From positions 248,001 to 312,000 of the forward strand of contig NZ_UYYD01000001.1 of NCBI RefSeq assembly GCF_900625105.1: 64,000 nucleotides of DNA, read 5' to 3'. A program made the translations under genes and the position numbers. The notes below the pieces were generated by a model. That model was not told the origin of the DNA and did not search any database. It saw only the letters and a list, made by a program, of their open reading frames with translations. Shown one piece after another: positions 37,788-41,871 of the stretch (the first letter of the stretch is position 1; every line of letters starts with the position of its first letter). The stretch comes from Agathobaculum sp. Marseille-P7918. Lineage in GTDB: Bacteria; Bacillota; Clostridia; Oscillospirales; Butyricicoccaceae.

Positions 37788-38990
37788 TTACAAAATCAGA
37801 TCTTCGTCCGTAACAAAGAATTCGTTGTCCATGTCCGCGCAGCGCCGGTCGAGTTCGGAACATGTCCCGACCACCTGCCGCACCGCATCATATTCCTTGC
37901 GGGCACGCGGATTGTCATGCCCGGTGCGTACTGCGCGGATGAGCAGGTTTTTCGGCGTATCCAGCGGCGAGATATACTCCACGACCGATACCTTATACCC
38001 TTCCGCTTCCAGCTTGAGCGCACGCATGCTATCAGTCACTACATCGTTGAACCGCGCCTTGAACACGCCGAATTTGGTCAGCGGTTCCAGTCCCGGCAGC
38101 GTGTACTGGTCAAGCAACTCCTTGTGGCAGCAAGGCACGCATGCGATATACTTCGCGCGGGCGCGAATGGCGGTCGCGAGCGCCAGATCGGTCGCAATAT
38201 CGCAGGCGTGCAGCGAAATCACAGCCGTCACACCCTTGGGCGGCTGATAGGTGCGCAAATCGGCGCACTGGAACACCATGTTATGATACCCCAGCCGCTT
38301 GGCCATCGCGCGGCTTTCGTCGATAACGTGCTCGTTGATGTCCACGCCAATCACGCGGCAGCGGCGGCGCAGCACCTCATGCAGATAATAATTCATAACG
38401 AAGCTCAAATAGGACTTGCCGCAGGCGCAGTCCAACAGGACGATCTCCTCGCTGTCATCCTGCTCAAACATGGGCGCCACCAGTTCGACGTAATGGTCGA
38501 TCTGGTTGTACTTGCGGATCATATCATTTTTGAGTTTGCCGTCCGCGGTCAAAATCCCGATCTCGCGCAGCAGTGCCGCCGCACGATCCACGCGGATAAG
38601 GTACTGCCGTCCCTGATCGAGCAACGGATTGGCGGCCGCCGCCTGCTCTTGTGCTGTGGCCTGTCGCTCGGCCTGCTTCATCTGCACGCCGCGCGCCGTG
38701 ACCGAAAGCGTGACCACCGAACCGCGCTCGGTATAGGTGAGCACCGCTTCGTCAAACTTCTCCGCCTGTTCGGCGAAAAACGCGCAGAAACCTGCGGCAT
38801 CCACCGTGCGGACGGTTCCCTGAAACCGCAGCTGATAGTCCTCACCCTCACGCTTGAGCTGGGCTTCAAACTTTTTCTTTCCCGAAGTAAAGACACCGAC
38901 TGCCTGCACAAAGAAGTCCTTGTTTTTGGTCAGGCGCGCCGAAATTCCGCTGAGCAGCAGCTTGAGTTTTGCCGCTTCTCCCTTTTGCAT
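37788..38990 (-). CDS. SAM-dependent methyltransferase (Methyltransf_32-like)
   Basis: 400-residue cytosolic protein. Residues about 150-330 form a class I methyltransferase fold: the SAM-binding motif LLDCACGKSYLSF near residue 196, VIGVDIN near 228, and motif IV-like VISLHACDIATDLAL near 270. The VPCCHKEL segment is typical of the Methyltransf_32 family. The N-terminal 130 residues form an extra domain of unknown role. Substrate unknown; RNA is a plausible target in this family. AAAGG upstream of the ATG. Confidence 0.85.
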   Translation of the reverse strand: MQKGEAAKLKLLLSGISARLTKNKDFFVQAVGVFTSGKKKFEAQLKREGEDYQLRFQGTVRTVDAAGFCAFFAEQAEKFDEAVLTYTERGSVVTLSVTARGVQMKQAERQATAQEQAAAANPLLDQGRQYLIRVDRAAALLREIGILTADGKLKNDMIRKYNQIDHYVELVAPMFEQDDSEEIVLLDCACGKSYLSFVMNYYLHEVLRRRCRVIGVDINEHVIDESRAMAKRLGYHNMVFQCADLRTYQPPKGVTAVISLHACDIATDLALATAIRARAKYIACVPCCHKELLDQYTLPGLEPLTKFGVFKARFNDVVTDSMRALKLEAEGYKVSVVEYISPLDTPKNLLIRAVRTGHDNPRARKEYDAVRQVVGTCSELDRRCADMDNEFFVTDEDLIL

Positions 38991-39098: not shown

Positions 39099-39662
39099 TC
39101 ACTCTCTTAAATCCAGTATCTGAAAACCTTGCAGCAAATCATCCGTGCCGTGCGATACGATCACGAGTGTGCGTCCTGTCCGATACTGTGCAATCACCGC
39201 CATGGCCTGCTGCCCTGTTTGCGCGTCCAGACCGGCAAACGGTTCATCCAATACCAGCACATCGCCCTCGGCAGCCAACGCGCGCGCCAAGGCCACACGG
39301 CGACGCATGCCGCCTGACAGCGTGCGCACCGGCTGGTCGAGCGCATCCTCCGGCAGCAGCGCGCCCAAAATTGCACGCACATGCGCGGCATCCACGCAAA
39401 CCAGCGACACATTGCCGACCGCGCTCCAGTGTTCGACCAGGCGATCTTCCTGAAACACCGGCAGAAAGCGCACGGTTTCCGATCCCACAATGCGGCCTGC
39501 ATCCGGTGTTTCCAGTCCCATCAGCAACCGCAGCAGTGTGGTTTTGCCGATGCCGGATACCCCGCGCACCTGCCACTGCTCCCCCGGCTGCAAGCGCCAG
39601 TTCAGATCGTGCAGCACAGTTTTTCCGTCAAATGATTTGCCCACTCCGTGAAATTCGATCAT
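39099..39662 (-). CDS. ABC transporter ATP-binding protein (nitrate/sulfonate/NMT1 type)
   Basis: 187-residue ABC ATPase, shorter than the usual 240 or so. All motifs are present: Walker A GVSGIGKTT near residue 38, Q-loop VFQEDRL, signature LSGGMRRRV, Walker B VLVLDEPFAGLD, H-loop VIVSHGTDD. The missing length is the C-terminal regulatory tail. Start at 39662 overlaps the permease stop (ATGA). It resembles the SsuB/TauB/ThiZ group and completes the transporter encoded upstream. Confidence 0.9.
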   Translation of the reverse strand: MIEFHGVGKSFDGKTVLHDLNWRLQPGEQWQVRGVSGIGKTTLLRLLMGLETPDAGRIVGSETVRFLPVFQEDRLVEHWSAVGNVSLVCVDAAHVRAILGALLPEDALDQPVRTLSGGMRRRVALARALAAEGDVLVLDEPFAGLDAQTGQQAMAVIAQYRTGRTLVIVSHGTDDLLQGFQILDLRE

Positions 39663-40426
39663 GCCGCGGCACCCCATTTCTTTTGCAGCGCGGCAGCCGC
39701 ATGCACCAACAGCTTTTCGAGCGCCAGACTGAGCACAATGATGGTCAGCGACCACGCAAACAGGTCGGCCGTGTTCAGATACAGCTTGGACAGATACAGC
39801 TGCTCCCCGATGGACCAGCGCGGCAGGCCGATGATCTCACCCGCAACGCCTGCCTTGAGCGCCATGCCGACCGAAACGCGGCATGCACTGAGCACATACG
39901 GGAGCACCGCAGGCAGGTACACCGCGCGGAAGCGTTTGCCGCCGGATAAGCGGAACACACGCGCCATTTCCAGCATTTTCACGTCCACACCTGCAAGGCC
40001 CTGCTGTAAATTGATGTACACCGCGGGAAACACCACGAAAAACGCCGTCAAAACCGAGATCCATGCCGACCGCACCCAGATGAGTGCGACCACCACAAAG
40101 CAGGCCACCGGCACGCTTTTCATAATCTGCACCGCAGGCTCCAGCAGCACACGCGCGAGCGCCGCACGATACGCCAGCACCGCCAGCAGACATCCGAGCA
40201 CAAAAGCAAGCACAAAGCCGCCTGCGATTTTCCCGATGGAACACCCGATCGAAAGCCAGAAATCCGTACTCCCGATCATGGAAAACAGGCTCTGCACGGT
40301 TTGTGCAGGGCCTGCAAACAACAGCTTGGGTAGGGCAAGCGATACCACTTGCCACAGTCCCAGCCAAAACGCCGCCGCTGCAATGCAGCGAACCCAGCGT
40401 TTATCCCAGATAGTAGAAGCCTTCAT
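39659..40426 (-). CDS. ABC transporter permease (SsuC/TauC/ThiX-like)
   Basis: 255-residue inner-membrane permease with about six hydrophobic segments and the conserved EAA-type loop (about 145-165, VDVKMLEMARVFRLSGGKRFRAV) that docks the ATPase. GMALKAGVAGEIIGLP near residue 185 is typical of nitrate/taurine/sulfonate permeases. It overlaps the binding-protein gene by 26 bases and the ATPase by four. Confidence 0.9.
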   Translation of the reverse strand: MKASTIWDKRWVRCIAAAAFWLGLWQVVSLALPKLLFAGPAQTVQSLFSMIGSTDFWLSIGCSIGKIAGGFVLAFVLGCLLAVLAYRAALARVLLEPAVQIMKSVPVACFVVVALIWVRSAWISVLTAFFVVFPAVYINLQQGLAGVDVKMLEMARVFRLSGGKRFRAVYLPAVLPYVLSACRVSVGMALKAGVAGEIIGLPRWSIGEQLYLSKLYLNTADLFAWSLTIIVLSLALEKLLVHAAAALQKKWGAAA

Positions 40427-41426
40427 CCGGCAGCTTTCCTCCTACAGCATCCGGCGCCACCTCATACAGCATTTCCAGATAGCCGGAGACCCACGTCTTC
40501 ATGTCCTCGCCGGTCGTTGCAACCATAGGATTGAAGTTCTCGATGACCTGCTGTGCGACCGCTGCCTTGACAATGCCGTATTGCTCGATCAGAGCCGCCG
40601 CGTCCGCTGGATTCTCCTCCGCTTTCGCGACCGATGCCTGATGATCCTGCACGAACTGTGCCACAGCCGCCGGGTGCTCCTCCGCAAATTCCGTGCGCAC
40701 CACGGTCACGCCGGTTGCGATGCCGCTACCGTCCGGGCTGTATTCCTTCCACGCATTCTCGAGCGGGAAGTTCATCGACAGTTCCTGATCCTGCATCATT
40801 GCGACCGTCGCAAACGGCTGCGGCAGAATACCGACCGCAGTTGCATCCTGCGCCAGCGCGGAAACAACCTCGGTTGCCTCGGACTTAAACTCGATCGTCA
40901 GATCGCTTTCACTCATACCAGCCTTCTTAAGCAGATATTGCAGCGTCCAGTCCGGCGAAGTACCCTTGCCGGTCATATACACCGTCTTACCCTTGAGTCC
41001 ACTCAGGTCGGTCAGCGCCTCATCATGCGAAACCACATACAGCACGTTGCCTGCGTTGACGTCCAACACCTGCACGCCGCCTTCGGTCTTCTGATAAAGC
41101 GTTGCAGCCAAATTGGTCGGAATCAAGGCGATATCCACTTCCCCTTTGCCGATCAGCGGCACGATCTCATCGCCCGAAGTATACAGATCGAACGAATAAT
41201 GCGCGTCTTCGCCCTCGTTTTCGCCCATCAAGCAAACCAGCCCCATTGCAGTCGGTCCCTTGAGCGCGGCAACGCGCGTGGTCAGGCCTTCTTCATAGCC
41301 CGGCTCCACCGTGGACTGCTGCGTCTGCTGATCCTGTTCCGCCGTCGTGTTGCCCTGCTGTCCGCAGCCGGTCAACAGAGTAAACGATGCCGCAATCGCC
41401 AATAAACCTGCTAAAAAACGTTTCAT
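40401..41426 (-). CDS. ABC transporter substrate-binding lipoprotein (NMT1-like)
   Basis: 341-residue lipoprotein: signal peptide with lipobox TLLTGC (Cys21), Gln/Thr-rich linker, then a periplasmic-binding fold of the NMT1/SsuA type. The segment VAALKGPTAMGLVCLM near residue 53 and GKGEVDIALIPTNLAA near 95 are typical. Relatives bind aliphatic sulfonates, taurine or thiamin-precursor pyrimidines; the ligand here is unknown. Starts 12 bases after the TM1266 regulator gene, so the two are co-transcribed. Confidence 0.9.
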   Translation of the reverse strand: MKRFLAGLLAIAASFTLLTGCGQQGNTTAEQDQQTQQSTVEPGYEEGLTTRVAALKGPTAMGLVCLMGENEGEDAHYSFDLYTSGDEIVPLIGKGEVDIALIPTNLAATLYQKTEGGVQVLDVNAGNVLYVVSHDEALTDLSGLKGKTVYMTGKGTSPDWTLQYLLKKAGMSESDLTIEFKSEATEVVSALAQDATAVGILPQPFATVAMMQDQELSMNFPLENAWKEYSPDGSGIATGVTVVRTEFAEEHPAAVAQFVQDHQASVAKAEENPADAAALIEQYGIVKAAVAQQVIENFNPMVATTGEDMKTWVSGYLEMLYEVAPDAVGGKLPDEGFYYLG

Positions 41427-41438
41427 GCTTTCTTCTCC

Positions 41439-41675
41439 TTACTTTGCCATCATGGATTTGACCTGCACGCTTTTGAGGCGTCCCAGCTTACCGGATAAGG
41501 CATTAATCGTATCATTGGCACATTCCATTACCACCGTGATGATGGAACATCCCTCACGCGGAATCCCCATGCGGCCGATGATATGCTCACCATACTCGTG
41601 CAGCAAACGATTGACCTCTCCGCTGGCCTCACGGTCGGAAACGATGATCCCCAAAATGGCAATTCGTTTTTCCAT
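41439..41675 (-). CDS. TM1266 family regulator (iron-only hydrogenase system putative regulator)
   Basis: 78-residue ferredoxin-like (ACT/NikR C-terminal-like) protein: MEKRIAILGIIVSDREAS near the N-terminus, GRMGIPREGCSIITVVMEC in the middle, LGRLKSVQVKSMMAK at the end. The family is named from Thermotoga and is often encoded near hydrogenase maturation genes, but no hydrogenase gene is in this window. AAAGGAG lies upstream of the ATG at 41675. It is the first gene of the ABC transporter operon, directly after a terminator hairpin in the leader. It may sense the imported compound. Confidence 0.85.
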   Translation of the reverse strand: MEKRIAILGIIVSDREASGEVNRLLHEYGEHIIGRMGIPREGCSIITVVMECANDTINALSGKLGRLKSVQVKSMMAK

Positions 41676-41691: not shown

Positions 41692-41871
41692 ACAAAAAAT
41701 GCGTCCTGCAAGACGATGCAGGACGCAAAATGACCACATTTCGGTTCTTTCATCGCAGACCATATCTTTGACAGCAGATCATATCAGTTACATAGATGCT
41801 TGCCCGTCAGCCACGCTTTCGGGAAAGGTAATCTACTGTTTCAGTATAGCTGTTTGATAAGAATTTGTCAA
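41692..41871 (-). promoter_or_regulatory. Promoter and structured leader with intrinsic terminator: candidate riboswitch
   Basis: Near-consensus promoter TTGACA (41866-41871), 17-bp spacer, TATACT (41843-41848) on the minus strand. The leader can close a 7 to 9-bp stem between 41831-41839 and 41771-41779 enclosing about 50 bases, then has a linker, then a strong hairpin with ten-base arms (GCGTCCTGCA, 41701-41710 and 41718-41727) followed by TTTTTT just before the ribosome binding site. That order (aptamer-like domain, terminator, gene) is typical of riboswitch or attenuator control. I could not match a known class. Confidence 0.65.

Follow-up and report, generated by a model that had tools for sequence, protein, structure and literature searches.

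Small terminator-linked riboswitches include preQ1-I and guanidine-II, while the ribonucleic antiterminator (RAT) hairpins are bound by BglG or LicT dimers. Among transporters, the MetN ATPase carries a C-terminal sensor domain. The TM1266 protein family has, to our knowledge, no established function. Nearer to the genes considered here, one review notes Wco riboswitches, arranged in tandem, ahead of ferredoxin hydrogenase genes (PMC9481103). In the open-licence literature, judged mostly by its listings, we found no description of control at the RNA level for assembly of the [FeFe]-hydrogenase cofactor.

Here we analyze a leader in a 64,000-nucleotide stretch of the genome of Agathobaculum sp. 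Marseille-P7918 (the window), which precedes a TM1266-family gene and the genes of an ABC importer. Judging from sequence comparison, we give an even chance to the reading that this leader is a feedback OFF-attenuator of the assembly regulon of the [FeFe]-hydrogenase cofactor (H-cluster), with a module of CUGA-P2-RAAG half-sites, here in tandem, as a putative sensor that binds the signal directly. The leader had been compared by eye with known riboswitch cores in the first-pass annotation and left unassigned. Covariance models agree: across the 4,227 models scanned, no Rfam 15 family reached its gathering score in the leader or in the scanned leaders of relatives, and on the leader none came near it. 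With no direct match in the leader, the earlier reading is not refuted. At E ≤ 10, the best matches of the leader were sau-6072 (18.3 of 50 bits) and PyrR (15.5 of 54 bits), and the whole window gave a single match, a tRNA. The loci of 16 relatives yielded just a fluoride riboswitch in A. massiliense (L054:1202-1279), far upstream of the leader at about 1.6 kb on its 5′ side; part of L066 gave no known-family match, and six further loci gave none at E ≤ 1.

The leader and its operon

The features of the locus are collected in Table 1. Reading of the minus strand recovers the near-consensus promoter proposed earlier (TTGACA-17-TATACT), and identical boxes are readable across 15 aligned leaders. 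Transcription would be expected to start near 41836, in agreement with the proposed leader length of about 160 nt. Also as described before, a terminator (10 bp, 6-nt loop, T6) lies before the first ribosome-binding site and is followed by the TM1266 gene, and matches to PF21699, TIGR03959, and Pfam families bear out an operon of TM1266 with an NMT1/SsuA-type substrate-binding protein (SBP), a permease, and an ATPase. The TM1266 gene is a clear member of TIGR03959, “iron-only hydrogenase system putative regulator,” with 2nzc as a solved relative. An alternative start of this gene at 41753, in frame and inside module 2, was rejected: it is lost in L002, where a stop follows. Just 3′ of the importer operon is a Methyltransferase_32 gene (37788-38990, minus strand), and by reading a comparable methyltransferase gene follows the importer in L052.

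Table 1. Features of the leader and the operon that follows it (window coordinates).
Feature	Position	Strand	Basis or detail
Promoter	41843..41871	minus	−35 TTGACA 41871-41866, 17-nt spacer, −10 TATACT 41848-41843; read from sequence
Module 1 (upstream copy)	41792..41836	minus	Alignment of 15 leaders
Module 1 stems	Outer 41836-41831/41797-41792; P2 41823-41820/41806-41803		CUU/AAG; P2 CCCG/CGGG; AA/GA loop; P3 AGC/GCU
Module 2 (family core, covariance-model match)	41743..41781	minus	R1, R2 scores; P2 covariation across Clostridia
Module 2 stems	P1 41778-41776/41748-41746; P2 41773-41770/41754-41751; P3 41767-41765/41759-41757		Loops GC/AA, AA/GC
Antiterminator strand GCGAUG (candidate 5′ partner)	41751..41756	minus	Overlaps P2′ of module 2; pairs with 41718-41713
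Antiterminator strand CAUCGU (candidate 3′ partner)	41713..41718	minus	Within terminator 5′ arm and loop
Intrinsic terminator	41694..41726	minus	10-bp stem 41726-41717/41710-41701, 6-nt loop, T6 41699-41694
TM1266-family gene	41439..41675	minus	PF21699 E 3e-27; TIGR03959 96.2 bits vs cut-off 60.8
Substrate-binding lipoprotein (SBP) of importer, NMT1/SsuA-like fold	40401..41426	minus	PF09084 E 1.6e-8
ABC permease	39659..40426	minus	PF00528
ABC ATPase	39099..39755	minus	PF00005; start uncertain, overlaps permease as drawn

A short hairpin with two equal half-sites forms the core of the leader

The leader is structured and conserved, and its core is a short hairpin built from two equal half-sites. 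The consensus reads CCUGA - P2 (3-4 bp) - RAAG - loop - CUGA - P2′ - RAAGG, in which P1 and P3 close the module and two 2 × 2 internal loops, GA over RA, flank P2. In 87 copies, both halves have the same sequence with mirrored conservation: the loop G is kept in 82/87 copies in each half, the A of the second loop in 86/87 and 87/87, and the canonical dinucleotides in all four loops in 72/87. The shared short module can also be read upstream of TM1266 in distant Clostridia.

The seed of covariance model R1 was chosen with a pairing requirement, which biases its match counts, and a sequence-only test, which has no such requirement, is free of that bias. The sequence-only pattern occurred in 61 of 138 TM1266 leaders (178 before reduction by similarity) compared with 3 of 138 reverse complements, and was absent from the remaining 77. 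In the leaders with the pattern, 204 of 263 P2 cells were paired, against 130 ± 6 for re-dealt partners (maximum 151 in 2000), with 3-bp P2 copies mostly counted against pairing. A structural descriptor matched 31/71 leaders, where letter shuffles predict 0.6. The alignment of the 87 copies, which is fitted to the model structure, gave a covariation of 0.680 compared with 0.228 in shuffles, a value reached by 0 of 500, while pairs with double changes (8) were no better than in shuffles (7.4). Module 2 of the window scored 33.1 bits with R1 (E 1e-5 over the whole genome, the copy being in the R1 seed) and 32.5 bits with R2. A conserved aptamer-like core, covariation, and placement before several operons of one pathway together give the module the putative character of a riboswitch-type element.

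Leader-like DNA was found in 16 of the 25 genomes of the genus, the source genome included, and P2 covaries; the first-pass reading, which was to fall if relatives showed no covariation or conservation, is not refuted. The genus accounts for 11 of 29 named TM1266 loci. Each Agathobaculum leader holds two modules (41836-41792 and 41778-41746 in the window). Module 2 has GC/AA loops, and in module 1 UU/CA takes the place of the outer loop, with P2, P3, and the AA/GA loop retained. Model R1 does not report module 1, whose homology to module 2 is our reading of the architecture. Across the 15 leaders, the outer stem and P2 of module 1 show changes on both sides, and the cores of both modules are conserved, whereas the linker between them is not. 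The two-module structure with the terminator has 93.3% of 540 cells paired and a covariation of 0.227 compared with 0.166 in shuffles.

A different core had been suggested earlier, a stem of up to 9 bp (41831-41839/41771-41779) that joins the transcript start, about where its 5′ strand begins, to the 5′ half of module 2. This stem is present in the minimum-energy fold of the window leader, but we rejected it as a conserved core: it decays in relatives, with 72.6% of cells paired over the 15 leaders and a covariation (0.168) below the shuffled mean (0.179).

The module is followed by terminators or overlaps ribosome-binding sites

Over a stretch of 153 nt, the leader has a better fold than each of 200 shuffles (z −3.2). 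A strong terminator, defined by an in-house score of at least 18, follows 64 of 72 module copies, where block shuffles predict 2.0 (73 copies before L258 was dropped, with L222 taken at its other copy). For these 64 copies, complementarity between the module 3′ strand and its own terminator 5′ arm was 16.5, compared with 13.7 ± 0.36 (maximum 14.7) for re-dealt pairs, and 0 of 200 re-dealings reached it. The window terminator has 98% of cells paired over the 15 leaders, with four pairs changed on both sides. As to the specific antiterminator that had been proposed, GCGATG with CATCGT, the pairing itself is possible (97.8% of 90 cells paired, with a single compensatory change); since the strands hardly vary, however, this level is equaled by 105 of 500 shuffles. 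A terminator before the first gene, combined with conserved and mutually exclusive pairing, predicts a transcription attenuator.

In six loci, the module 3′ strand and the hydG ribosome-binding site overlap (L060, L070, L073, L092, L095, and L255, of which L060, L073, and L095 are weak matches with E 0.01-0.1), and these copies are probably a translational form. Since the module 3′ strand can pair with the terminator 5′ arm, a stabilized module should favor termination (OFF), and the ribosome-binding-site design likewise predicts that a stabilized module is OFF. It seems to us highly likely that we are dealing with a genuine OFF attenuator that acts on the H-cluster regulon.

Genes downstream of the module

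Gene contexts were read from ORFs, with ten proteins checked against Pfam and five against NCBIfam. Across other Clostridia, the genes found after the module are TM1266, hydE, hydG, hydF, aspA, and those of ABC importers of the NMT1 and FecCD types. TM1266 is followed by hydG, by hydE and hydG, or by hydF (L121); hydG also occurs without an adjoining TM1266 (L122, L124, and L128) and hydE alone (L139). Aspartate ammonia-lyase is the context in L123 and L229, and an excerpt of one study links this gene to hyd operons, with the enzyme supplying nitrogen for the bridging ligand (PMC11736057). NMT1-type importers follow the module in the window, L034-L040, L063, L065, L066, L068, and L120. FecCD-type importers have a TM1266 domain fused to the ATPase and are followed by hydE in L243 (and, by reading, L245) or by a NifH-like gene in L244; the C-terminal domains of the ATPases at L243:1188-2297 and L244:1659-2714 match PF21699 with 65 and 70 bits and are likely sensor domains of the importer. 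One genome with a FecCD-type importer and hydE (G716) has a best HydG-model match of 58 bits, and another of the same genus (G665) has a full HydG of 924 bits. In one genus, a GNAT acetyltransferase gene stands between leader and hydG (L247:652-1140, Pfam-checked, and L248).

One motif search matched 36 genomes, 27 with a hyd-type context, one ambiguous (G583), and eight in unrelated sequence; because of these last nine, the E-values are to be taken as optimistic. By reading, we judged matches at unrelated genes to be chance (L126, L129, L131, L132, L138/L232, L230, L231, L233, L252-L254, and L256), as we did further copies in the source genome, two in coding sequence (L107 and L108, purD and ftsH by reading) and two weak (L109 and L110, E 0.3 and 5.7). 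The match in L117 is ambiguous and that in L251, at a FecB-like SBP, is weak. We conclude from these gene contexts that the module is a predicted mark of a [FeFe]-hydrogenase cofactor-assembly regulon.

Hydrogenases without maturases and the importer

A thiamin or sulfonate theme, suggested earlier from the importer type, finds no support, and we set uptake of either aside as the pathway: the gene contexts are those of [FeFe]-hydrogenase cofactor assembly, and the SBP falls below the cut-offs for SsuA (TIGR01728, 80.8 of 163.5 bits) and TauA (TIGR01729, 20.7 of 304 bits). The structural model of the SBP (pLDDT 85) is closest to 3hn0, then to TauA, SsuA, and Thi5-like folds. 3hn0 is BDI_1369, an SBP of Parabacteroides distasonis, another gut anaerobe, and its entry title names no ligand; the matches of the predicted fold say nothing firm about the ligand.

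The source genome (G000) encodes a group-B1 [FeFe]-hydrogenase (L149:514-2067; TIGR04105, 628 bits with a cut-off of 450). No HydG in it exceeds the cut-off (best 193 bits, at ThiH level, of 312), and no HydF does (best 91.6 of 325.6 bits). HydE proteins elsewhere match the HydG model weakly (e.g., 62.6 bits in G018), and this genome has no such match. The isolates A. massiliense (G001) and A. desmolans (G003) likewise have canonical HydA motifs without HydG or HydF over the cut-offs. Among 54 genomes of the family that are at least 90% complete, 52 have a PF02906 match. An SBP homologue (E below 1e-45), on which the importer count rests, is present in 19 of the 26 that lack both HydG and HydF, compared with 10 of the 26 that have at least one of them (Fisher p 0.025, which ignores kinship). 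TM1266 or the leader lies next to the SBP in 12 of these 19, and six have neither TM1266 nor the motif in the fetched loci; G076 was left out of this neighborhood count. In the other seven of the 26 (G056, G060, G061, G070, G071, G082, and G006), a hydrogenase occurs without HydG, HydF, or the importer, and the importer is therefore not the sole answer. G055 has the importer with no hydrogenase match.

We found no module copies beside hydrogenase genes in 19 regions (L143-L161), nor in the fetched regions L240, L241, and L242 of G056, G060, and G070, which hold hydrogenase genes. An excerpt describing an apo-hydrogenase makes precursor uptake chemically reasonable (PMC9400101). What the importer takes up may be an H-cluster precursor.

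Discussion

We propose that the element probably shuts its genes off when cofactor or precursor is plentiful. Binding of the signal would hold the module 3′ strand in P1/P2, so that the antiterminator could not form and the terminator would stop transcription; on the hydG ribosome-binding site, binding would hide the site. The signal would report the supply of H-cluster precursor, which the importer would provide to a cell with [FeFe]-hydrogenase and without HydG or HydF.

What reads the signal divides the possible explanations. We lean slightly toward the RNA sensing the compound directly, as a riboswitch, a proposal whose chances we put at about half. Two genomes count for it: G368 (97% complete) has a good motif copy before hydG and no TM1266 match, and G023 keeps the importer leader (L038) with no TM1266 in that operon, its one TM1266 lying near hydG and hydF. 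Both speak against the competing view, in which TM1266 binds the module as an RNA operator and would itself sense the precursor and autoregulate the operon while the RNA binds no small molecule, and no RNA-binding function is known to us for the TM1266 fold. Yet this operator, which we regard as possible though somewhat doubtful, would explain a good deal. TM1266 is a small protein that probably forms a symmetric oligomer, and the identical half-sites with mirrored conservation have a two-fold symmetry that suits a dimeric protein; TM1266 frequently comes first among the genes that follow the module, and its domains fused C-terminally to ABC ATPases resemble a sensor domain. It is present in 50 of the 52 motif genomes of the order (the other two being marginal matches in unrelated sequence) compared with 140 of 295 genomes overall, taking two draws of 295 as the same, and in 26 of 27 genomes with a hyd-type motif context, G368 being the exception.

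Control by some other RNA-binding factor, a small RNA, temperature, or iron, with the hydrogenase link a matter of operon membership, strikes us as quite unlikely. In its favor there is nothing specific, only that many proteins could bind so short a module with GA/AA loops; against it, the module is found repeatedly ahead of different operons that belong to a single pathway. That the hairpins set a fixed low expression with no sensor is barely credible. The window does have a strong terminator and an antiterminator helix of just 6 bp, but conservation of the loops and of P2 pairing extends over many families, the 3′ strand is more complementary to its own terminator arm than in re-dealings, and the copies on ribosome-binding sites have no terminator role.

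Within the proposal of direct sensing, we also entertain, as rather unlikely, that the module represents a new class of riboswitch responding to an intermediate of H-cluster assembly, possibly with the two-fold symmetry of the [2Fe] precursor, and that the importer scavenges this organometallic precursor from neighbors. If this were true, gut bacteria with [FeFe]-hydrogenase and without HydEFG would be auxotrophic for the cofactor, whose precursor would be shared as a common good among gut bacteria. The repeated half-site architecture is unusual, and TM1266, just a putative regulator in NCBIfam, gains a testable role. For hydrogenase genomes without HydG and HydF, isolates included, the route to the H-cluster becomes a testable question.

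Compared with described systems, the window gene belongs to the TM1266 family (PF21699/TIGR03959, 2nzc), while this importer-linked copy differs around GRMGIPY from the copies in hyd operons. The importer shares its fold and its SBP-permease-ATPase layout with NMT1/SsuA/TauA-type importers and 3hn0 but scores below the SsuA and taurine cut-offs and is tied to hydrogenase genes. Of the Moco/Wco riboswitches, those for Wco are reported ahead of hydrogenase genes, as noted above; the scanned leaders match none of the 4,227 Rfam models, which presumably include that of Moco. Like preQ1-I and guanidine-II riboswitches, the element is a short aptamer-like module with a terminator or SD platform and tandem copies in some leaders; unlike them, it has repeated CUGA/RAAG half-sites, a hydrogenase-cofactor regulon, and a sensor that is putative. 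With RAT hairpins it has in common two internal loops, competition with a terminator, and a fit to a dimeric protein, but its sequence differs, a stabilized module would favor termination, and the candidate protein is TM1266.
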